A program made the position numbers and the translations under genes. The notes under the pieces are model-generated. The model ran no database searches. It was not told where the DNA came from and saw nothing but the letters and a program-made list of their open reading frames with translations. Below are positions 13,628 to 48,635 of a stretch of DNA of 64,000 bases, piece after piece; the stretch's first letter is position 1; every line of letters starts with the position of its first letter. The DNA comes from an uncultured Colwellia sp. (GTDB taxonomy: Bacteria; Pseudomonadota; Gammaproteobacteria; Enterobacterales; Alteromonadaceae): contig CAJXQI010000008.1 in assembly GCA_913058395.1 (NCBI GenBank), positions 124,001-188,000 of the forward strand, written 5' to 3'.

Positions 13628-14137
13628 CTACTTCACCACAGTTAAACTTGGCTTTTTAGCTTTATGCTTTTCATGCTTTTCATGCTTTTCATGCTTTTCA
13701 TGCTTTTTCGCAGCAGACTCACCTTTAACTGAATTAGCATCACTTTTTACCGCTGATATGCTTGGCGTATCAACTTTACTTAACGCTAAGTCTTGCTCAC
13801 GCGTTTCAGGATCTGGGTGTTCAATTTCTAGCGAAGTACCTGCGCCATTTTCTTTTGCATAAATAGCAGCAATAGCACCATAAGGCACGCTAATATGCTC
13901 AAGTTTACCGCCAAAGCGGGCACTAAGTTCAATACTATTATCACTTAATGCAATGCTACCAACAGCAGAGCCAGATACATTCAAAACAATTTGGCCATCG
14001 TTAACATAAGCCATAGGCACCATAACGCCATACACATTAACGTCAACAACAATGTAAGGTGTTAGGTCGTTATCAGAAATCCACTCATAAAAAGCCTTAA
14101 CAATATAAGGCTTATTTGATGTCATTTCGATGGTCAT
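13628..14137 (-). CDS. sspB: ClpXP protease specificity-enhancing factor SspB
   Basis: The 169-residue adaptor delivers ssrA-tagged and other substrates to ClpXP. The folded N-terminal domain (about residues 1-110) holds the signature KPYIVKAFYEWISDNDLTPYI... and the IALSDNSIELSARFGG core. A charged flexible linker follows. The last residues, SLTVVK, resemble the ClpX-binding tail of E. coli SspB (LRVVK). The linker contains a five-copy 9-bp tandem repeat encoding an EKH tract, which is unusual. sspB follows sspA after 11 bp. Confidence 0.95.
   Translation of the reverse strand: MTIEMTSNKPYIVKAFYEWISDNDLTPYIVVDVNVYGVMVPMAYVNDGQIVLNVSGSAVGSIALSDNSIELSARFGGKLEHISVPYGAIAAIYAKENGAGTSLEIEHPDPETREQDLALSKVDTPSISAVKSDANSVKGESAAKKHEKHEKHEKHEKHKAKKPSLTVVK
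13664..13708. repeat. Five-copy 9-bp tandem repeat in the sspB linker
   Basis: The unit ATGCTTTTC is repeated head to tail with only the last copy altered. On the coding strand each unit adds one Glu-Lys-His triplet. Because the unit is three codons long, gain or loss of copies would change linker length without shifting frame. Confidence 0.9.
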
Positions 14138-37603: not shown

Positions 37604-38965
37604 ATGCCGGAAGTTTCTGAACAAGAGTACAGCCACCAACGTCTACAGCAGGTTAATGATGCCCTCGGTAGTGGTATGTATGTCTATGTCCGAAAACTAC
37701 TGCAGGACATGCCTGCGTTTGATCTCGCCTTATTATTAGAATCATCGCCAACGAAAAGCCGTACCGTACTTTGGCAATTAATCGATGCTGATCATCACGG
37801 TGAAGTACTTGAAGAGCTTAATGAAGAAGTTCGAAAAGGTATTCTTAAAAATATCCGTCCAGAAAAGCTTGCTGAAGTCGCAGAAGGCATGGACGTTGAT
37901 GATTTAGCAGAAGTTTTCCGTACTCTACCTGACAGTGTATATCGTGAAGTGCTGAGTTCAATGGACTCACAAGATCGCAGTCGTGTAGAAGCCGCACTGT
38001 CATACGAAGAAGACACTGCCGGCGGTATCATGAACACTGATACCATTTCCATTCGCCCTGACGTTACCGTCGACGTAGTATTAAGATACTTGCGTTTACG
38101 TGGTGAATTACCGGAAGCAACTGACTCCTTTTACGTTGTAGACAGGGAAGATCATTTCATTGGTGCCGTATCATTATCAGCCATTGTTACTGCAAAACCA
38201 GAAACGATTGTTTCAACGCTGATTGACGATGAAATTGAAGCTATTACCGCTGATATGAACGAAAAAGACGTTGCGCAACTATTCGAACGGCATGATTGGT
38301 TTTCCGCACCTGTTGTTGATGAAGAAGATCGCTTACTCGGCCGTATTACCGTTGATGACGTGGTTGACATTATTCGTGAAGAAGCTGAACACTCGATGAT
38401 GAGTATGGCGGGTTTAGACGATGAAGCTGATACCTTCGCGCCCGTTTTAAAAAGTACCCAACAACGCTCTGTTTGGTTGGGGGTTAACTTAATAACCGCA
38501 TTATTAGCCGTTGCCGTATCAAGTATGTTTGAAGGCATTTTAAGCCAATTAGCCATACTCGCAGTGTTAAACTCTTTAGTTCCTAGCATGGGCGGCGTCG
38601 CTGGTAATCAAACCTTAACCTTAGTTATTCGTGGTATTGCTTTGGGGCATGTTGGCGAAAGTAACTCACGAATTTTACTTTATAAAGAATTAGCTGTTGG
38701 CTTCTTTAACGGTATGATTTGGGCCATATTAATCGCAACCGTAGTGGCTATTTGGCAGCAAAACATCATGTTAGGGGCAATAATCGCTTTTGCCATGTTG
38801 ATGAATATGACTGCAGCTGGTATTGCAGGCGTTACCATCCCATTGATGTTAAAAAAGATGAATATTGACCCTGCACTGGCTGGCAGTGTTATTCTAACGA
38901 CCATCACAGATGTAGTTGGTATTTTTGCCTTTTTAGGTACCGCGACATTGTTTTTAGGCACTTAA
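37604..38965 (+). CDS. mgtE: Magnesium transporter MgtE
   Basis: The 453-residue channel has an N-terminal helical superdomain rich in acidic residues (about 20-135), two CBS domains (about 140-265) and five membrane helices (about 290-450). PSMGGVAGNQTLTLVIRG and the pore-forming AGIAGVTIPLMLKK match the family. Magnesium binding to the cytoplasmic domain closes the channel in the Thermus homologue. The 178-bp upstream region shows no recognised riboswitch. Confidence 0.95.
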   Translation: MPEVSEQEYSHQRLQQVNDALGSGMYVYVRKLLQDMPAFDLALLLESSPTKSRTVLWQLIDADHHGEVLEELNEEVRKGILKNIRPEKLAEVAEGMDVDDLAEVFRTLPDSVYREVLSSMDSQDRSRVEAALSYEEDTAGGIMNTDTISIRPDVTVDVVLRYLRLRGELPEATDSFYVVDREDHFIGAVSLSAIVTAKPETIVSTLIDDEIEAITADMNEKDVAQLFERHDWFSAPVVDEEDRLLGRITVDDVVDIIREEAEHSMMSMAGLDDEADTFAPVLKSTQQRSVWLGVNLITALLAVAVSSMFEGILSQLAILAVLNSLVPSMGGVAGNQTLTLVIRGIALGHVGESNSRILLYKELAVGFFNGMIWAILIATVVAIWQQNIMLGAIIAFAMLMNMTAAGIAGVTIPLMLKKMNIDPALAGSVILTTITDVVGIFAFLGTATLFLGT

Positions 38966-39097
38966 ACCTTAATCTTTCTGTTAAGTAGCTTGGTGTTGCC
39001 CGCATTCTTTCACAGCTATGTGACCGCACCCCCGAATATATACATTCTTAGTATCCATGCATCCGTGCATCCGTGTTTTACAGTACGTCCTAAACAT

Positions 39098-39124
39098 AAA
39101 AAGCGAGCTCTTGGCTCGCTTTTT
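39098..39124. terminator. Bidirectional terminator between mgtE and pmbA
   Basis: The stem AAAAAGCGAGC/GCTCGCTTTTT with a five-base loop has T runs on both strands, between converging genes. Confidence 0.88.
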
Positions 39125-39167
39125 AATTAACTAAAAAAATTTCCAACTTAAACGTTAGGCAACTCGA

Positions 39168-40523
39168 TTAATTACCTGCTACTTGCATTTCGTTAATAAT
39201 AATTGAGCCTGTTCGAATGCTACCACGCATATCAATATCATTGCCGATAGCAACAATGCCCGCGAACATATCTTGCAGCTTGCCCGCGATAGTAATTTCA
39301 TCAACTGGGTAAGCGATTTCACCATTTTCAACCCAAAATCCAGCTGCGCCGCGTGAGTAATCACCGGTTACAACATTAACGCCTTGGCCCATTAATTCGG
39401 TTACCAATAGTCCTGTGCCAAGAGTTTTCAACATCGCATCAAAATCACCACCTTGACCTGATTCTTTTATGCCTAACTGCCAATTGTGAATACCACCGGC
39501 ATGACCCGTTGATTGCATACCAAGCTTACGGCCTGAATAACTTGTTAATAGATAAGTTGCTAAGCGACCATCGGTGATAATTTCACGATCTATCGTTGCA
39601 ATTCCTTCACTATCAAAGGCACTACTTGCTAAGGCTTTTTTCAGATGTGGACGCTCACTGACCGATAAAAACTCAGGGAACACTTGCTTATCCATTGAAT
39701 CCATCAAAAATGATGATTTTCGATATAAGTTACCACCACTTATGGCTGCAATGTAGTGACCAAAGATACTATTAGCAATGTCGGCACGAAACATCACGGG
39801 TACTTTAGTGGTGGCCAGTTTATGCGCACCTAAACGCGACAGCGCTTCAATTGAAGATTGCTTGCCAATACTAACGGCACTTTCCATGGCATCAAATTCA
39901 CGACTAACGGTATAAGCATAATCGCGCTGCATATCTTCGCCTTCATTAGCGATCATCACACAGCTTAAATTATGACGTGTACTCGGGTAACCGACTAATT
40001 GACCATGACTATTACCATAAACTTTAAAGCCTTCAAAACTTGCTAGAGTTGCGCCGTCAGAATTAGTAATACGTTCATCATAGGCAAGAGCAGTGTCTTC
40101 ACATTCTTTAGCTAGACTAATCGCCTCTTCTGTAGACAGTACTTTTGGGTGATATAAATCTAAGTCTTCAGGGTTCATCGCCAATAATTCTTTATCAGCT
40201 AAGCCAGAACAATCATCAACAGAGGTATATTTAGCTATATTTACTGCCGCTTCAATCGCTTGCTTCAAGGCTTTTTCAGATAAATCAGCCGTAGAAGCAC
40301 TACCTTTACGACCTTCTTTATATACGGTAATACCCAGCGCACCATCGCTAGTAAACTCAACATTTTCAACTTCCCCTAAACGCGTACTCACACTTAAGCC
40401 TTGCTGACGGCTCATGGCAACTTCAGCACCATCAGCGCCTAATGATTTGGCCATTGCCATTGCGTCGTTAACGCGCTGCTTAACATGTTCTATTTGCGTT
40501 TGGATACTATCAGAATCGCTCAT
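39168..40523 (-). CDS. pmbA: Metalloprotease subunit PmbA/TldE
   Basis: The 451-residue TldE subunit partners TldD in a heterodimeric zinc protease that matures microcins and removes the CcdA antitoxin in E. coli. VSTRLGEVENVEFTSDGALGITVY and the C-terminal GDYSRGAAGFWVENGEIAYPV match closely; TldE itself lacks the catalytic HExxxH of TldD. A GTG at 40541 is in frame, but the ATG at 40523 fits the family better. It is divergent from yjgA. Confidence 0.95.
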   Translation of the reverse strand: MSDSDSIQTQIEHVKQRVNDAMAMAKSLGADGAEVAMSRQQGLSVSTRLGEVENVEFTSDGALGITVYKEGRKGSASTADLSEKALKQAIEAAVNIAKYTSVDDCSGLADKELLAMNPEDLDLYHPKVLSTEEAISLAKECEDTALAYDERITNSDGATLASFEGFKVYGNSHGQLVGYPSTRHNLSCVMIANEGEDMQRDYAYTVSREFDAMESAVSIGKQSSIEALSRLGAHKLATTKVPVMFRADIANSIFGHYIAAISGGNLYRKSSFLMDSMDKQVFPEFLSVSERPHLKKALASSAFDSEGIATIDREIITDGRLATYLLTSYSGRKLGMQSTGHAGGIHNWQLGIKESGQGGDFDAMLKTLGTGLLVTELMGQGVNVVTGDYSRGAAGFWVENGEIAYPVDEITIAGKLQDMFAGIVAIGNDIDMRGSIRTGSIIINEMQVAGN

Positions 40524-40640
40524 GGGTAAATTATTTCTCACATTTGTTCGCTATTTTTTTCGATACCAGCAACAGGAATGTTTTTGCTGTAACGGCTTTG
40601 TTGTATACTATAGGGAATTATCAATTTATTACCTAACATT

Positions 40641-41159
40641 ATGACAAAGTCTGCCAATCAGATCGACGAATTAGAAGAAGAATTACTGAGTAAATCGGAA
40701 ATAAAGCGTGAAATGCATCGACTGCAAGATTTTGGTCTTGTCATCGTAAAAATGTCTAAACACCAACGCAGCCGATTACCACTTACTGAAGAGCTAAAGC
40801 AAGCCATGGTAGTTGCTGATAAAATCACTAACAAACATGAAGCTTTACGTCGACATATTCGCCATATCGCAAAAATTCTGGCAGAAACCGATCTTGAGCC
40901 CATCAAACACGCAATGGAAGTGATGGCGAACAAACATCAACAAGAGTCAGTGAAGTTTGAAAAGCTTGAGCAAATGCGTGACGACTTAATTGCCCAAGGC
41001 AACGATGTAATTGAAGCTTTGTTGGCACAATTTAACACCATGGAAAGACAAAAGCTTAGACAACTTGTACGAAATGCTAAAAAAGAGCACAGTACTGAAA
41101 AAGTAGGTAAACATTACCGAGACTTATTTACTTACTTAAAAGAACATGTGGTTTTTTAA
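40641..41159 (+). CDS. darP: Ribosome biogenesis factor YjgA/DarP (DUF615)
   Basis: The 172-residue helical, charged protein associates with 50S precursors in E. coli. KSEIKREMHRLQDFGLVIVKM and the C-terminal QKLRQLVRNAKKE...KHYRDLFTYLKE are the family landmarks. It is divergent from pmbA, the common arrangement. Confidence 0.93.
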   Translation: MTKSANQIDELEEELLSKSEIKREMHRLQDFGLVIVKMSKHQRSRLPLTEELKQAMVVADKITNKHEALRRHIRHIAKILAETDLEPIKHAMEVMANKHQQESVKFEKLEQMRDDLIAQGNDVIEALLAQFNTMERQKLRQLVRNAKKEHSTEKVGKHYRDLFTYLKEHVVF

Positions 41160-41188
41160 GCACTTTCTTATCTAAAGTAAGTAAAAAT

Positions 41189-41222
41189 AACGCCCTGTGT
41201 TTAGATTAAATCAGGGCGTTTT
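41189..41222. terminator. Terminator between yjgA and the desuccinylase gene
   Basis: The stem AACGCCCTG/CAGGGCGTT with a 14-base loop and short T run lies between two converging genes and may act in both directions. Confidence 0.75.
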
Positions 41223-41265
41223 CAATGCCAATTTCTGTTTGCATAAATAACTGACTGCGTATTAA

Positions 41266-42423
41266 TTACAAAATACTATACCTACTAAATACTTTATACA
41301 ATTCAGTACCTTGATTCACACTTGCTGAGGCAAAGTGTAAAATAGGGATCACGGGATGATCCAAATTAATATAGTGTAATGGATCGCCATCACCATAATT
41401 ATCCATTCGCAATATCCGTGCTAAAGGCTCTCCTGCAGGTAAAGGCTCGCCAAAACTAGCTAAGTAATCGACCATGCCGCCCATTGGCGAATATAACGCT
41501 TTATAATCTTCTAACATGCAACTATAACGAATCATTGCTTTCGGGTGATAGTCATTAGAGTTAATCACATTCTGGTACTGTAAATAACTTAAAATACCAA
41601 GCGCATCTTGATGAGCTACGTCTAAATCAATTTGCTCTTGCGACCCCAGTTCAACGGTAAAGCTTTCTTTAACGATACCACCTTCGCCTTCAACGTTATT
41701 TTTTCGAATAGAAAAGTCTCGTCCAAGCGCTTTAAGTGCTAACTGTAATTGCCACCAAGGACAAAAAGTAGCTTCATCTAACGCACCATCAAAACTATTA
41801 GGGATCAATAAGGTATGCGGAATATCAAAATATTTGGCACTTTCCTTAGCGTATTCAGGGCAATACAAATGTTTACTTGAGATAGGACCGGTGTGCAAAT
41901 CTAGCACAATATCTGCTTGGTGAGCTAAGCGTTGCAATTGATAAGCAATTCTTTGCCCTGTCGTTAAACCATAAATATTATGATTAAGTTTTTGTTCAAT
42001 TTGCTCAAGCATTAACGCTTTAAACGCAGCCTCAATTTTTTCACTACTACTATTTACATATTCTTGTGCAAACGGTTCAATAATACTGGCGTCAAAATGG
42101 AACATACGATTCCAATTAACCCCAGTTATAGGGTCAAATCTACCTAAGGTATACTCGCCATTTTTATGATTACAGCCAACAGGATTCGCATATGGCACTA
42201 AGGTAATATCACCCTTTAGTTCAATGTACTTTAATTGCTCTAATAGCTGAAAAATAACCGCATTGCCCTGTACTTCTGCGCCATGCATATTCGCTTGAAT
42301 ATAAACACTAGGGCCTTGCTGTGAGCCATGTTGAGAGCCTTTAATACGATATACTGGTACCGTCAGTGCTGCACCACTGGCCATTTCACCAACGTGCATC
42401 ACTTCTTTACTAATTACATTCAT
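41266..42423 (-). CDS. Zinc-dependent succinylglutamate desuccinylase/aspartoacylase-family protein
   Basis: The 385-residue hydrolase of the M14-like AspA/AstE family removes acyl groups from amino acids in characterised members. Zinc ligands are H47 and E50 in NMHGAEVQG and H177 in DLHTGP; the likely base is E258 in TVELGSQEQ. The ATG at 42423 has AAAAGG seven bases upstream, and its context is copied in both upstream repeats, so I prefer it to the ATG at 42438. It lies downstream of dapA-dapD-lysA on the same strand, so removal of succinate from succinyl-diaminopimelate is an attractive inference, but not shown. Confidence 0.82.
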   Translation of the reverse strand: MNVISKEVMHVGEMASGAALTVPVYRIKGSQHGSQQGPSVYIQANMHGAEVQGNAVIFQLLEQLKYIELKGDITLVPYANPVGCNHKNGEYTLGRFDPITGVNWNRMFHFDASIIEPFAQEYVNSSSEKIEAAFKALMLEQIEQKLNHNIYGLTTGQRIAYQLQRLAHQADIVLDLHTGPISSKHLYCPEYAKESAKYFDIPHTLLIPNSFDGALDEATFCPWWQLQLALKALGRDFSIRKNNVEGEGGIVKESFTVELGSQEQIDLDVAHQDALGILSYLQYQNVINSNDYHPKAMIRYSCMLEDYKALYSPMGGMVDYLASFGEPLPAGEPLARILRMDNYGDGDPLHYINLDHPVIPILHFASASVNQGTELYKVFSRYSIL

Positions 42424-42441
42424 ACATAACCTTTTCATCGA

Positions 42442-42540
42442 CTACCGCTGCCAATAGCGTAAACACCAAGAGGCGGACTCTGCTGCACGTATCAGCTCCA
42501 TCTCGCCAACGTGCATCACTTCTTTACTGATTGAATTCAT
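42442..42540 (-). pseudogene. Chimeric mini-frame 2: desuccinylase start joined to lysA end (32 codons)
   Basis: It begins MNSISKEVMHVGEM like the desuccinylase, then reads ELIRAAESASWCLR like the lysA C-terminus, and continues four residues to a TAG because the native stop has mutated (TAA to TAT). It keeps the same ribosome-binding sequence as the intact gene. It is most likely a recombination remnant, but could be translated. Confidence 0.75.
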
Positions 42541-42570
42541 ACATAACCTTTTCATCGACTACCGCTGCCA

Positions 42571-42657
42571 TTAGCGTAAATACCAAGAGGCGGACTCTGC
42601 TGCACGTATCAGCTCCATCTCGCCAACATGCATCACTTTTTTACTAATTACATTCAT
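42571..42657 (-). pseudogene. Chimeric mini-frame 1: desuccinylase start joined to lysA end (28 codons)
   Basis: The 28-residue frame reads MNVISKKVMHVGEM followed by ELIRAAESASWYLR and a TAA at the same point as the real lysA stop. The lysA-like part differs from the intact gene (ELVRAAEPATWYLR) only by conservative changes, and AAAGG precedes the ATG. It is probably a remnant of tandem duplication and internal deletion. Confidence 0.75.
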
Positions 42658-42687
42658 AAATAACCTTTCTATTGACTAGCACAGCCA

Positions 42688-43959
42688 TTAACGCAAATAC
42701 CAAGTAGCAGGCTCTGCAGCACGTACTAACTCAATCTCTCCATTTTGCAGCACATATTCCGCCGCTATTTGATGACAGAGAAAAAATGGCATACTTTCAG
42801 TAAAGCCATAAGCACCTGATAAACCAAAAACTAGCTGGTCATCGACAGCAATATCTTGTGGAAAAGCTAATCGACCAAGCTTATCCAAGCTAGTACATAA
42901 CGGGCCGTGAACATCGAAGTTGGCTAATGACTCAGTAGACTCTCGCAACATTACCGCAGGAAATGCTTGCTCAGTAATTGCCGGTCGTAATAAATGATTG
43001 ATACCACCAGCTAACACGAGTTGTTGCTGTTGAAAGTTTTGCTTTTTATCAACAACTGACGTGACGTAATAGCCTGATTCAGCCACAGCATAACGGCCGA
43101 GTTCAAGCCATAGTTCCTTAACGCCAGCTCGTGCTTTTATTTTCGCTAAGTCATCAACAATTCGTTGCCAACTTAACGTCTGACCTTTTTGTAAATAATC
43201 AACACCTAAGCCGCCACCTAAATCGAGTACTTCGAGCGTCATGCCAACTTGTTCAGCTAGCTGAGTTAGTGGCTCAACCATTTGCGACCATAAATGGTAC
43301 ATTTTTTCATTGCTGAGCATATTGCCCCATTGAAATATATGTAGACCATTAATATTTAATGCTGGGAAGTCACAGACGTTAATTGTTTGCCACTCATCAC
43401 ACGATAAACCAAAAGGCGTCACTTCATTGCCACCAAGCGGATTTTTTTCACCGTCGGGCCACTGTAGTTGCACTCGAAGTAGTACCTGAGGTTTGCAATC
43501 CAGCTCTATCGCCGATTCATTAAGCCACTGCAGCTGCAACAAACTTTCAACAACAAAGGTGTTAACACCTTGCTGTAAAAAGGCTTTCATTTGGCGCTTT
43601 GACTTAGCAGGCCCAGTATTAAGAATACGCTTAGCAGCAACATTTTGCGCTAACACTTGGCTTAGCTCACCTTGACTGGCAACGTCAAAATTAAAACCTT
43701 GTTCAGCTAAGGTAGTAATAACGCGTGACAAAGGGTTAGCCTTAACAGCAAACCAAAGTTTAATCACATCTTGCTGCATTAACTCTGACAAGTGTTGCGC
43801 AAGCGCATCTAAATCATAAAGAAAAAAGCCAACTTCATCTTCATCAATTTCGTCGGTATTTACCTGCAACTGATGGCGATTTTTCAATACGTTAAGCACT
43901 GTAGGATTAAGCCAATTTGGTCTAAATCTAGCACTTAACTTTTCTTGTGTTGCTTTCAT
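42688..43959 (-). CDS. lysA: PLP-dependent diaminopimelate decarboxylase-like protein (LysA family)
   Basis: The 423-residue fold-type III PLP decarboxylase is expected to turn meso-diaminopimelate into lysine. The PLP lysine is K73 in FAVKANPLSRV. The phosphate-binding region is LDLGGGLGVDY, and HGPLCTSLDKLGR carries the conserved cysteine. The sequence is quite divergent from E. coli LysA and brings to mind TabA of tabtoxin synthesis, so the substrate could differ. It follows dapD by 8 bp inside a riboswitch-controlled operon, which favours lysine synthesis. Confidence 0.83.
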   Translation of the reverse strand: MKATQEKLSARFRPNWLNPTVLNVLKNRHQLQVNTDEIDEDEVGFFLYDLDALAQHLSELMQQDVIKLWFAVKANPLSRVITTLAEQGFNFDVASQGELSQVLAQNVAAKRILNTGPAKSKRQMKAFLQQGVNTFVVESLLQLQWLNESAIELDCKPQVLLRVQLQWPDGEKNPLGGNEVTPFGLSCDEWQTINVCDFPALNINGLHIFQWGNMLSNEKMYHLWSQMVEPLTQLAEQVGMTLEVLDLGGGLGVDYLQKGQTLSWQRIVDDLAKIKARAGVKELWLELGRYAVAESGYYVTSVVDKKQNFQQQQLVLAGGINHLLRPAITEQAFPAVMLRESTESLANFDVHGPLCTSLDKLGRLAFPQDIAVDDQLVFGLSGAYGFTESMPFFLCHQIAAEYVLQNGEIELVRAAEPATWYLR

Positions 43960-43967
43960 TTTTTGCC

Positions 43968-44717
43968 CTAACGTAAAACAGCTTCAAGTTCTAAGGCCGC
44001 ATTACTTTTTTCATCACGGTATTTAACAATCAATGCACACGCCATATTCAAGCCTTGTTTTTCCGCCCAACCGCCAGAAATAGGACGAGTTCCAGGTACA
44101 ACCACGGCATTCTCGGGAATATCGGCGCCTTTCTCTAACATAATATTATTAACACAGTCGTAAACAGGCACTGAAGCTGAAAGCGAAACTCCTGGTGCTA
44201 ACACCGCACCTTTTTTCACTACAATACCTTCAACAATGATCACACCAGCACTAAGAAAAGCATTATCTTCAATAATCACCGGACTTGCTCCAATAGGCTC
44301 AAGTACGCCACCAATTTGTACCGCCGCAGATACATGAACATTTTTACCTACCTGTGCACATGAGCCAATTAAGGCATGGCTATCAATCATAGTACCGCTA
44401 TCAACAAATGCTCCAACATTGATATAAGCAGGCGGCATAATAATCACACCAGGAGCAACATAAGCACCGCGACGAACTGATGAACCACCCGGTACCATAC
44501 GGACATTATCACTGACCGAAAATTCACGCGCTGGTAAATTATGCTTATCAACAAACCCCTGATATATACCACCAAACTCAGTATTATCACCGGCTTTAAA
44601 TGCCGATAATATTGCTTGTTTTACGTCGATATTAGCACTCCAATTCCCACAACTACTTTGCTCTGCTGCACGTACACTTCCTGATTCTAACGCTGTTAAA
44701 GTTTCTTGCCAGTTCAT
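43968..44717 (-). CDS. dapD: Tetrahydrodipicolinate N-succinyltransferase (DapD)
   Basis: The 249-residue left-handed beta-helix acyltransferase has hexapeptide repeats at about residues 75-200, including INVGAFVDSGTMIDSHALIG, SCAQVGKNVHVSAAVQIGGV and LEPIGASPVIIEDNAF. It transfers succinate from succinyl-CoA to tetrahydrodipicolinate in the DAP pathway. It is about 25 residues shorter than E. coli DapD and looks closer to the Bacteroidetes/TabB-type branch, so lateral transfer is possible. It overlaps dapA by four bases (ATGA). Confidence 0.88.
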   Translation of the reverse strand: MNWQETLTALESGSVRAAEQSSCGNWSANIDVKQAILSAFKAGDNTEFGGIYQGFVDKHNLPAREFSVSDNVRMVPGGSSVRRGAYVAPGVIIMPPAYINVGAFVDSGTMIDSHALIGSCAQVGKNVHVSAAVQIGGVLEPIGASPVIIEDNAFLSAGVIIVEGIVVKKGAVLAPGVSLSASVPVYDCVNNIMLEKGADIPENAVVVPGTRPISGGWAEKQGLNMACALIVKYRDEKSNAALELEAVLR

Positions 44718-45727
44718 TGATTTACTTCTCTTAAATTACTTGTTGATAAAGGGGCTGATTGGGTATTATTGAGCGCAGGTTCAAAAGCAAATGATGCTTT
44801 GTCATTGCTTTTAAGTGCTTGCTCTACAAACCATTGCTGAATTTCCTGATGAATAGTGTGCAAATTGTGATCGCTAGCTAACTCTTCTTGGCATAATGGC
44901 AAACGCAATGTCGCTGTACTAATAACGGCTAATTCGGTCATTAATACTTTTACCGGAATAGGACTCGTGACTTGAAATAGCGCGGCAATGGCATTGTGCC
45001 AAAGTGGAAATAGGCCATCACATTGCTGAGATAATGCTAACGCCACATAACGCTGGGTTTCCTGCGGCCAAACATTGGCACAAACCGACACTAAGCCCCG
45101 CACACCGGCATTACCTAAATAGGGCATCATGGCATCTTCACCGCTGAACAATTCGATATCGGGGCAATGCTGACGATAGGCTAATAGCTTGTTAAGATCA
45201 CCACTCGCTTCTTTAAGCGCCCAGCAATTTTCATGATGTTGCAGTGCTTGTAATGCCGAAATGGCAATTTCGACACCACTTCGTGATGGCACGTTGTATA
45301 GCATACAAGGGAAGTCTGCTGCGTCGAGCAAGGCTTGGTACCAAGCAGTTTGCCCAATCGGCCCTGGTTTGGCATAAATTGGGCTACCCAGTAGATATGC
45401 GCTAACAGGAAGTTGATTACATTGCCCTATCCAAGCTAATTGCGCAGCAAGGTTATGGCCTCCAACAGCAACCATCAAAGGCACATCAAGCGACAATGCC
45501 ACAACGAATTCCACAATAGCGAGTTGCTCTTCACTAGTTAATGCCAGACCTTCACCTGTGCTGCCTAGCAATAAAATACCATTGGCTGCAGCATTTTGTT
45601 GCTCTGCAATGGCTTGTAAGCTGACATAATCAATCGCGCCATCACTAAGTAATGGCGTGATCAAAGCCGTCCATACAATGGAAGATTCCGATTTGGGGGG
45701 TGTTTTACAATAAGTTATTTGATTCAT
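44714..45727 (-). CDS. dapA: 4-hydroxy-tetrahydrodipicolinate synthase (DapA)
   Basis: The 337-residue aldolase-type enzyme condenses pyruvate with aspartate semialdehyde, opening the lysine branch. GSTGE lies at residues 55-59, Tyr144 in MLYNVPSRSGVEI, and the Schiff-base lysine is K172 in CWALKEASGD. The C-terminus runs ~35 residues beyond typical DapA (292 in E. coli). A TTG at 45772 is in frame, but it lies within the riboswitch terminator, so the ATG at 45727 is correct. It is the first gene of dapA-dapD-lysA. Confidence 0.9.
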   Translation of the reverse strand: MNQITYCKTPPKSESSIVWTALITPLLSDGAIDYVSLQAIAEQQNAAANGILLLGSTGEGLALTSEEQLAIVEFVVALSLDVPLMVAVGGHNLAAQLAWIGQCNQLPVSAYLLGSPIYAKPGPIGQTAWYQALLDAADFPCMLYNVPSRSGVEIAISALQALQHHENCWALKEASGDLNKLLAYRQHCPDIELFSGEDAMMPYLGNAGVRGLVSVCANVWPQETQRYVALALSQQCDGLFPLWHNAIAALFQVTSPIPVKVLMTELAVISTATLRLPLCQEELASDHNLHTIHQEIQQWFVEQALKSNDKASFAFEPALNNTQSAPLSTSNLREVNQ

Positions 45728-45733
45728 TTCTCT

Positions 45734-45756
45734 CGAACTCGTTTCGTTCGGAGAAC
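45734..45756 (-). promoter_or_regulatory. Hairpin in the dapA 5' leader next to the start codon
   Basis: CGAAC and GTTCG, extended by TCTC/GAGA, can pair just upstream of the dapA start. The structure overlaps the only purine-rich candidate ribosome site (GAGAG), so it may affect translation. Confidence 0.35.
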
Positions 45757-45770
45757 TTATAGGCGCTTGC

Positions 45771-45800
45771 AAAAGCCAAATTCAAGAAATGAATTTTGGC
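45771..45800 (-). terminator. Riboswitch-controlled terminator before dapA
   Basis: On the minus strand GCCAAAATTCA pairs with TGAATTTGGC and is followed by TTTT. It begins 9 bases after the aptamer ends. Its 5' arm starts with the GGCC needed by the alternative hairpin at 45797-45814, so the two exclude each other. Confidence 0.75.
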
Positions 45801-45814
45801 CTTAACAAAGGCCA
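45797..45814 (-). promoter_or_regulatory. Antiterminator hairpin of the lysine riboswitch
   Basis: TGGCCTT and AAGGCCA form a seven-bp stem with a TGTT loop. It uses the 3' strand of aptamer helix P1 and the first bases of the terminator stem, so it can form only when P1 is open, that is when lysine is low. Confidence 0.65.
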
Positions 45815-46006
45815 GAAGCTCTCCACCTAAAAGGTGACAGTTGCAAGGATTCAACCTAGCACTCAGCATAAAATATGACTTAGCGACAACAACCGATATT
45901 TGTATCAACAAAAATACAATTACCTCGGCGTTTTCCCCCCTCACTATTGCTCACTAGAGTTTGAACTCTTCACAATAGCTACCTGGTAAACGCTCCTCTT
46001 CTGGCC
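45810..46006 (-). ncRNA. Lysine riboswitch (L-box) aptamer upstream of dapA
   Basis: Read on the minus strand, GGCCAGAAG and CTTCTGGCC form P1 across 197 nt. Between them, in order, are the class-defining conserved blocks: AGAAGAGGAGCG, GTGAGGGGGGAAAACGCCGAGG, CGGTTG, CTGTCACC, and GGTGGAGAGCTTCTGG. The order and spacing match the E. coli lysC L-box. A sigma-70 promoter lies ~60 bp upstream. Lysine binding should close P1 and favour the terminator that follows, shutting off dapA-dapD-lysA. Confidence 0.93.
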
Positions 46007-46064
46007 CTTCATCATTAGGCTAGTTACAAAATGAACTAACCCAACTGGAATAAGGGACTAAATT

Positions 46065-46094
46065 ATTAAAACATTTAAATCTAAGTCTCGTCAA
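46065..46094 (-). promoter_or_regulatory. Probable sigma-70 promoter of the lysine riboswitch-dapA operon
   Basis: TTGACG (46089-46094) and TTTAAT (46065-46070) are separated by 18 bp on the minus strand, each one base from consensus, 59 bp before the aptamer. Confidence 0.6.
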
Positions 46095-46126
46095 TAGACG
46101 TCTAAACGTATATTAACAATAAAAAT

Positions 46127-47413
46127 CTAATTTATTGATAAACTTGATCTTATTTCTTTTTCTAAAATAGAAATTCGATCTTGCCCCCAATAGCTAAAAT
46201 TTTTCATTTTAAAACACGGCACGCCCCAAAACGCTAAACTTGTCAGTTCTGCTTGGTTATTATCAGCCCACTGCTGCCAATTGTTTTCAGCTTTATAGGC
46301 ATGCGCAGCTTGTTTATCTAATGCTAACTCACCAATAATATTATCGATATTCTCGGTATCAGATAAATCAATATTCTCTACATAGACCGCGCGAAAACAC
46401 GCCAACATGTACTCTTTACCCTTACCTTGTTGCTGTGCCCAAGCAAACATACTATATGCGTTGATGACACCATCACCTAAGGGATCTACAAAACCATTAA
46501 ATTCAATATTAAGCTTTTTCGCTTCCCTTAAAGCATCCAAATAGATGTATTTTTGCTTAGCGATGGGAATTGAAGCACCGCGCATCAATAAAGGTAAAAC
46601 AGGTTTAATCACTAGTTCAAGTTGATAGCGCTCGGCCAATGCAATAGCTTGCACAAAACCCAAATATGAATAAGGACTACGTAAAGACAAGAATATTTCT
46701 AGTTGCTGTAATTTTACGTTAATTGTTGGCTGTTTTTTAAAATCAGTAAACTTTGTGCTAACAAGTTCCTTACTGACATTTACATCGGCCAATAATTCAT
46801 TACTAACCGATGTTATCAAGCTGTGTTGCTCTAAAGCCTTTTCAAAATGAAAAAGTCTATCTACGCCAACAAACCAATCTCCAGCAAAACAAATAGCAGC
46901 AGCACAATAATGCCCCTTATTTTCAAGTCGAGCTTGGTTTTTCACTTGATGGGTAATAGTCGGTGTCGACGCGACATAGTGTTCACTATAAGTACCGCCC
47001 CAAGTTTGTAAAAAAATTTGCTCGGCATTATTGATATTATTAGGCAGCAATTGCCAAGCTTGCTGACCTGTAGAAAATAACCTTGACGAAGGAACTTTAT
47101 CTATTTTCACTAATTGATATTGCTCAGCAATTAAATTAGCATCCTGAATTGCCCATTGTCGATGCAGCTTTGGAGCTATTGTCACTCCAGGTAAAGCGCC
47201 CCAAATAAAGAATATTTTTAACTCTACTTCATATTTATCCTGTAAACGAGCTAGCATTTGTACCAACATAAAACTGTGAGGATCGTTTAACGCTAAATAT
47301 ACTTCTGCCTGCGCACTTTTCCCAAAAAAACGCCCTAATAGAAAATAACGGAAGGTCAAAAGCTTTTGCCTATTTTGGCTATGTAGCCATTTTATTTTCA
47401 GGCGAAAAATCAT
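46127..47413 (-). CDS. Double DsbA-fold protein (HCCA isomerase-like)
   Basis: The 428-residue protein carries two thioredoxin/DsbA-like domains of the 2-hydroxychromene-2-carboxylate isomerase (kappa-GST) type. The second opens with IFLSLRSPYSYLGFVQAI and ends with LTSLAFWGVPCFKM. The first opens with VYLALNDPHSFMLVQMLA and is more degenerate. No CxxC motif is present, so it is not a classical disulfide oxidase. The frame opens at a TTG (47431). An AAAGGAG lies 18 bases before the ATG at 47413 but only six before an in-frame ATT at 47425, so the true start is uncertain. Function unknown. Confidence 0.72.
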   Translation of the reverse strand: MIFRLKIKWLHSQNRQKLLTFRYFLLGRFFGKSAQAEVYLALNDPHSFMLVQMLARLQDKYEVELKIFFIWGALPGVTIAPKLHRQWAIQDANLIAEQYQLVKIDKVPSSRLFSTGQQAWQLLPNNINNAEQIFLQTWGGTYSEHYVASTPTITHQVKNQARLENKGHYCAAAICFAGDWFVGVDRLFHFEKALEQHSLITSVSNELLADVNVSKELVSTKFTDFKKQPTINVKLQQLEIFLSLRSPYSYLGFVQAIALAERYQLELVIKPVLPLLMRGASIPIAKQKYIYLDALREAKKLNIEFNGFVDPLGDGVINAYSMFAWAQQQGKGKEYMLACFRAVYVENIDLSDTENIDNIIGELALDKQAAHAYKAENNWQQWADNNQAELTSLAFWGVPCFKMKNFSYWGQDRISILEKEIRSSLSIN

Positions 47414-47585
47414 TTTATTAAAAATAGCCAACTCCTTTAGGACTATTGATGGCGAGATGTTTAAAATCGCGTAGAATAGCTTGCATTATTACATACTAAA
47501 AATAATCTCTGCGCATATTTGTAGCAAAATACGTACAAAAAATCGCAAGTATTATAATGAATTAAGCGCAAACACAGGTAATTCC

Positions 47586-48635
47586 ATGGCAATCAGCAAT
47601 ATTAATCAACTGTTAATACGAAATATCGATGGTATTTCAGCAACTACTCCTCTTTTCGTTAATATTGCTAATGATGGCATTATTGCCGAATATCTGACTC
47701 ATCACACCACGGCAAAAATAACTTGTTACCACACTAATTTTGCTGATTACAAACTCAGCAAAATAGCAAAAAACAACCAAGTTACCAGCCATTTCTGTGT
47801 TGAATATAAAGCTCAAGCAAAACATGACTTAGTGATCATTAACTTTCCTAAAAGTAAGGCGGAATTTGGCTTTACACTGGCGATGCTTGCTGAATCAATG
47901 ACAGAAGACGCTACGGTTATTATTGTTGGTGAAAACAAAGGCGGTATTAAATCGGCAGATAAGTTAAGTAAAAACTATTTAAACTTTTGCAATAAGGTTG
48001 ATGCCGCTCGTCATTGTTTGTTGTATGTTGGACAATTTCAGTCAGATTTACCAAAATTTGAACTTGATAAATTCTATAAATATTACTCAGTAACCGTTGC
48101 TGATAAACAGCTAAAAATAGCGGCATTACCTGGCGTTTTTAGCCAGAATGGCTTAGATGTTGGCACCGATGTCTTGTTAGAAAACTTACCACTATCGATA
48201 AAAGGTAAAGTGCTCGACTTCGGTTGTGGTGCTGGCGTTATTGCTGCCTGTATTGGTAAACTTTTTCCCGACACTGAACTCACTTTAGTCGATGTTAGTG
48301 CCTTAGCATTACAGTCAGCGAAAACGACTTTAGCACTCAATGAACTAAGCGGAGAATGTCTTGCATCAGACAGTCTTTCAGATGTGAAAGAGCGCTATGA
48401 TTTTGTTATTTCTAATCCGCCATTTCATCAAGGTGTTAAAACCCACTATGCAGCAACCGAGCAATTTTTAACGAAAATTAAGCAACATTTATCTACTCAC
48501 GGTTGTATTACCATAGTCGCGAATAGCTTTTTAAAGTATCCGCCAATTATGGAGAAGGCCATCGGTGAAACCAAAACACTAGCGATAAAGAAAGGTTTTG
48601 CCATTTATCAATGCTTTACCAAAGCAAAAAATTAA
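47586..48635 (+). CDS. rsmC: 16S rRNA (guanine-1207-N2)-methyltransferase RsmC
   Basis: The 349-residue protein has two Rossmann-like domains: a degenerate N-terminal one and a catalytic C-terminal one with the SAM motif VLDFGCGAGVIAA, the acidic ELTLVDVSALAL, and the catalytic ISNPPFHQGV. It methylates G1207 of 16S rRNA. The frame is open to a TTG at 47481, but the ATG at 47586 gives the family length (343 in E. coli). Confidence 0.93.
   Translation: MAISNINQLLIRNIDGISATTPLFVNIANDGIIAEYLTHHTTAKITCYHTNFADYKLSKIAKNNQVTSHFCVEYKAQAKHDLVIINFPKSKAEFGFTLAMLAESMTEDATVIIVGENKGGIKSADKLSKNYLNFCNKVDAARHCLLYVGQFQSDLPKFELDKFYKYYSVTVADKQLKIAALPGVFSQNGLDVGTDVLLENLPLSIKGKVLDFGCGAGVIAACIGKLFPDTELTLVDVSALALQSAKTTLALNELSGECLASDSLSDVKERYDFVISNPPFHQGVKTHYAATEQFLTKIKQHLSTHGCITIVANSFLKYPPIMEKAIGETKTLAIKKGFAIYQCFTKAKN

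Follow-up and report, generated by a model that had tools for sequence, protein, structure and literature searches.

The window that we analysed, 64,000 nucleotides from an uncultured Colwellia sp., carries on its minus strand a lysine riboswitch followed by dapA-like, dapD-like, lysA-like and AstE/AspA-type genes, in that order (Table 1). In canonical form, lysA and dapE are also present in the same genome, on contigs C27 (540 bits) and C15 (557 bits), and therefore the riboswitch operon at 41266-46008, with its AstE-like gene, resembles a second lysine set that runs in parallel and may serve as an alternative. A lysine-riboswitch operon with the order dapA-dapD-lysA-hypothetical1-hypothetical2 has been described in Pseudoalteromonas haloplanktis (PMC5584792); riboswitch and dapA-dapD-lysA order are alike in both, whereas a junction repeat goes unmentioned in the passages of that paper that bear on the operon. 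As a guess, hypothetical1 might be the AstE-like gene.

Between the intact lysA-like gene and the intact AstE/M14-like gene (hereafter lysA and astE) we found three units of 117 bp, lying head-to-tail at a constant period. Tandem Repeats Finder (TRF) reported an array at 42381-42725 with period 117, 2.9 copies, 88% matches and a score of 529, and a separate repeat search gave three copies at spacings of 117 and 117. The tripled junction noted in the first-pass annotation is thus borne out by two methods, and its span can be refined to 42382-42732. Each unit consists of a lysA tail, a spacer and an astE head; we call the parts that belong to the intact genes live and the others spare. Within the window's own genome (G000) the units differ from each other at 7-23 of 117 bases, and the distance from the lysA stop to the astE ATG, built on the 117-bp period, is 264 nt. 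When this genome was searched at the DNA level for a second copy of the array, one full site only was found; the nine other rows covered 16-22 bases with E values of at least 0.77.

Table 1. Features of the lysine operon and of the repeated lysA/astE junction (positions in the window)
Feature	Position	Strand	Basis
astE-like gene	41266..42423	-	AstE_AspA_cat PF24827, 104.3 bits
Unit 3: lysA tail (spare, stop lost) + spacer + astE head (live, ribosome-binding site included)	42382..42498	-	
Chimeric mini-frame 2, 32 codons + stop, original stop lost	42442..42540	-	ORF read from sequence
Unit 2 (mosaic, in the middle): lysA tail (spare) + spacer + astE head (spare)	42499..42615	-	
Chimeric mini-frame 1, 28 codons + stop	42571..42657	-	ORF read from sequence
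Unit 1: lysA tail (live) + spacer + astE head (spare)	42616..42732	-	
lysA-like gene	42688..43959	-	Orn_Arg_deC_N PF02784; TIGR01048 194.5 bits, below cut-off 297.9
dapD-like gene	43968..44717	-	NF008808 291.7 bits, above cut-off 204
dapA-like gene	44714..45772	-	TIGR00674 241.7 bits, above cut-off 206.15
Lysine riboswitch, upstream of dapA	45808..46008	-	RF00168, 92.5 bits

The fused mini-frames described in the first-pass annotation do exist, but their composition has to be corrected from about 13 and 16 codons: in each, 14 codons of astE head are joined to 14 codons of lysA tail. Mini-frame 1 (42657-42571) reads MNVISKKVMHVGEM+ELIRAAESASWYLR* and mini-frame 2 (ATG at 42540) reads MNSISKEVMHVGEM+ELIRAAESASWCLR, the latter being four codons longer in this genome because its TAA became TAT. 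As had been claimed, the ribosome-binding site is retained in the copies: in both species that carry the array, each mini-frame has an AAAGG motif ahead of its ATG. The two mini-frame stops of the own genome lie 30 and 18 nt ahead of the next ATG, with the AAAGG motif present, and the stop of the second mini-frame in the other species lies 30 nt ahead of astE. The lysA tails fall into two classes. Spare tails of both species form one class, with 1-5 of 45 differences among them; live tails form the second, with 1/45 between species and 7-12 of 45 to the spares. The earlier observation that the spare tails of the window resemble each other (2/45 differ) more than the intact lysA tail (10/45 and 12/45) therefore holds.

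We compared the copy number of the junction in close relatives, as the first-pass annotation had proposed. An AstE-like gene is present in 17/17 genomes of the genus, and inspection of the junction in all 17 revealed the array in two, the own genome and its sister species (G004, which corresponds to Cognaticolwellia mytili KCTC 52417, with the same 97% match). The other 15 have a single junction, with 8-39 nt between lysA and astE in 13 of them. In G010 this gap is 390 nt, and its junction insert (L017:2695-3008) is MITE-like, flanked by 29-nt inverted repeats that are 86% complementary. In G007 (L018) the junction is single by sequence; the lysA match ends at residue 320, and the computed gap of 320 is void because this lysA is frameshifted. 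The apparent frameshift lies in a G run of a one-contig genome and reflects either a pseudogene or a sequencing error. Among 51 named loci, several of which come from the same genomes as the genus set, the array occurs in one (L039), which is the sister species again. A 234-base query from the array found matches in 14 of 196 genomes of the family, more than one only in the own genome (two matches) and the sister species (three); at most four candidates were scored per genome, so that weak or differently built repeats could escape. In the LysA and AstE trees (support 100/100 and 100/98) the two array carriers are adjoined by G016, which has a single junction; the LysA tree holds 16 of the 17 rows, G007 being left out. 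The stem leading to the two carriers measures 0.082 in the AstE tree, with tips of 0.025 and 0.0055, and 0.16 in the LysA tree, with tips of 0 and 0.043. We also considered that AstE might be of foreign origin, with the spare tail carried along, and rejected this, since both trees agree on the closest kin.

The spare parts of the array have drifted. Between the two species 28/234 spare sites differ (12.0%) versus 3/117 live sites (2.6%; Fisher P 0.0025), and the spare-part divergence is near the synonymous rate of lysA (dS 0.10) and astE (dS 0.19). The small frames have decayed too, mini-frame 1 of the sister species by a premature stop and mini-frame 2 of the own genome by loss of its stop. 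Counts of nonsynonymous to synonymous changes (N:S) gave 12.4:10.7 on spare branches versus 25:67 in the whole genes (Fisher P 0.027), counts that are small, come from mosaic units and rest on a tree imposed by hand, in which four of the 15 genomes with a single junction served as outgroups. This argument for neutrality is weak, because the same codons on live branches gave 12.5:26.5, and compared with these the spare ratio is not significantly higher (P 0.18). The nonsynonymous fraction on spare branches is also below the neutral 0.79 (P 0.004) and below 0.72 (P 0.034). Moreover, no indels were found in the array between species among 31 substitutions, where 3.6 would be expected at the rate of the region's intergenic sequence (68 indels per 579 substitutions; P of finding none 0.026). 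Exchange in register with the live ends could account both for the lack of indels and for the low proportion of nonsynonymous changes. Since such exchange can import synonymous changes and erase indels, we keep the reading of the array as nearly neutral.

Signs of exchange are seen in the units themselves. Unit 2 of the sister species has a tail of the spare class (7/45 from its unit 1), with spacer and head as in its unit 1 (1/30 and 2/42 differences). In the own genome the spacer of unit 2 is identical to that of unit 3 (0/30), and its head ends in GGCGAG as in unit 1. By distances and by inspection, these mosaic units are partly closer within species than between, the pattern of concerted evolution. 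Such mosaics would be the expected product of unequal exchange between two-unit arrays. The third unit could have been made separately in each species, or a shared three-unit array could have been overwritten later. Along the best alignment of the window with the sister species (19.9-53.0 kb) we scored difference in 1-kb bins. Outside 38-47 kb, 18 of 24 bins show 11.4-21.4% difference and the remaining six (19-22, 25 and 26 kb) 0.9-7.7%; the operon lies in the 10 bins of 38-47 kb, and these show 1.1-6.5%. Positions 38000-47999 are thus a likely exchange tract that includes the lysine operon, and on this pattern of divergence the operon may have passed between the two lineages after their split. 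If so, the two arrays need not be independent survivals, and the array may postdate the common ancestor of the two species.

We consider it probable that the array arose when the lysA/astE junction was duplicated in tandem, and that it is nearly neutral, without selected function. The first event, in the lineage of the two carriers, would have joined GGnGAGAT-like motifs of the astE head and the lysA tail, leaving one extra 117-bp unit between two intact genes. An imperfect candidate for such a breakpoint motif can be read in the sequence: TGGAGAGAT in the lysA tail and TGGCGAGAT in the astE head of unit 1 agree at 8/9 bases (raw count), the live lysA tail of the own genome reading TGGAGAGATTGAG and the unit-1 head TGGCGAGATG. 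Its live astE head (GGTGAAAT) matches the motif of the lysA tail at fewer bases, and the match is likewise poorer for the live astE head as GGTGAAATG and for lysA of the sister species (TGGAGAGGT). Head joined to tail at this motif would produce the observed junction, and the fusion is in frame because lysA and astE read the motif in one and the same codon phase. Subsequently the spare would have drifted while the live ends remained under selection, and a third unit would have arisen by unequal exchange, with a mosaic middle unit that differs in each species. Since each unit has the ribosome-binding site of astE and keeps the frame, a spare would yield a peptide of at most 12-32 residues and leaves both enzymes whole, and therefore the array is tolerated. 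An old duplication, on the stem of the two carriers, would be consistent with the distance between live and spare tails. A Leu is common to the spare tails and to lysA of both species, at a position that is Gln in the remaining 15 genus members; this Leu, being in both tail classes, places the source of the spare tail within this lineage. The live lysA also has TTG where 14/15 relatives have TTA (G010 has TTG) and GCT where none of the 15 has a third-base T (GCA in 6/15), and at both sites it seems from this comparison to be the live lysA that changed. As donor of the spare tail we considered and rejected the canonical copy on contig C27, whose tail is unrelated.

The first-pass annotation had proposed a longer history, in which the gene pair was duplicated and its interior then lost, and a second, now deleted, lysA-like gene supplied the spare tail. 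In such a history the whole lysA-astE pair, or a second lysA-like gene, would have diverged while working before deletion of the interior left its tail behind. The synonymous divergence of the tails speaks for this: spare and intact tails of the own genome are separated by 7 synonymous and 3 nonsynonymous changes, with a dS of 1.65 over 10.5 sites, far above the lysA dS of 0.10 between species, and the live-versus-spare S:N counts (7:3 and 7:4 in the own genome, 4:3 and 7:4 in the sister species) fit a diverged working copy. However, it is the live lysA in which part of these differences seem to have arisen, and on the branches of the spare tails 4.0 synonymous stand against 5.4 nonsynonymous changes. 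A lysA with a spare-type tail was found neither in the 17 genus genomes nor in the 45 of 51 named loci in which lysA was located (L063, L065, L073, L074, L076 and L078 gave no lysA match), and the tail of the canonical lysA gives this history no source. Two steps and a second lysA are also unneeded, because a single 117-bp duplication between similar motifs gives the same anatomy. We therefore regard the longer history as unlikely, and duplication of the junction without selected function as the best reading.

Still less likely is that the mini-frames form a selected translational relay, in which ribosomes ending lysA would be passed to astE across the 264-nt gap. It is just as doubtful that such a relay would set the level of AstE in the lysine-riboswitch operon or avert an early stop of transcription. 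The AAAGG motif and ATG ahead of each mini-frame in both species would suit a relay, and so would the way in which disrupted frames are continued: in the sister species a premature TAA in mini-frame 1 is directly followed by an ATG, and in the own genome the lost stop of mini-frame 2 is followed by a TAG 21 nt ahead of the astE ATG. A relay, if true, would also explain the missing indels and the lowered nonsynonymous share, and it would be a regulatory small-ORF array born of a single accident. However, the array is absent from 15/17 genus genomes, the residues of the mini-peptides are variable, and the 390-nt gap with its inverted-repeat insert in G010 shows that a long lysA-astE distance is tolerated. 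The frame conservation expected of a leader peptide or regulatory small ORF is absent, given an array in 2/17 genomes with a premature stop in one and a lost stop in the other. In an Rfam scan of the window the lysine riboswitch alone reached threshold, with no match within the array; the folding energy of the array RNA is ordinary (z 0.25), and neither promoter nor terminator is predicted within 42382-42732 (the region has 7 promoter-like sites versus 13.2 expected). An artefact of assembly, an objection raised in the first-pass annotation, is scarcely credible even though both assemblies are multi-contig, because the units are not identical to each other and the array recurs in the assembly of a second species.

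A nearly neutral junction duplication has known parallels. In Salmonella, spontaneous rearrangement junctions with short homology, duplications included, have been reported (PMC3411829). Those cases are alike in that copies are joined at a short shared motif; they differ in that our motif is imperfect (8/9 bases), the unit is 117 bp and two diverged species carry it. The head-to-tail units, fixed period and mosaic middle unit also recall minisatellites, which differ from our array of just three units spanning the ends of two genes. Minisatellite-like tandem repeats in general consist of head-to-tail units of fixed period that undergo unequal exchange. The own genome has long tandem repeats in other places as well: across 400 kb, sampled as 20 stretches of contigs C1, C3 and C4, TRF listed 19 arrays, three with a period of at least 30 and one with a period of at least 100, the single long array giving a rough rate only. 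Two tandem repeats of the own genome deserve mention. A 244-bp repeat (L132:13210-13752; 2.2 copies, 96%) overlaps one end of a 6S RNA gene (13704-13885, minus strand), and the window contains a perfect 9-bp repeat, ATGCTTTTC, in 4.9 copies at 13664-13707.

Among the titles listed in our literature searches none concerns this junction, and we claim nothing wider. The repeated junction looks like a fresh instance of a known process, an ordinary stutter of the DNA, and not like a new functional element. It provides a small, clean case in which a gene junction has been duplicated without harm to either gene, and in which units that bring a start site of their own and end in frame are tolerated while they drift and recombine. 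It is also a warning that short chimeric frames in gene lists may be debris of duplication.
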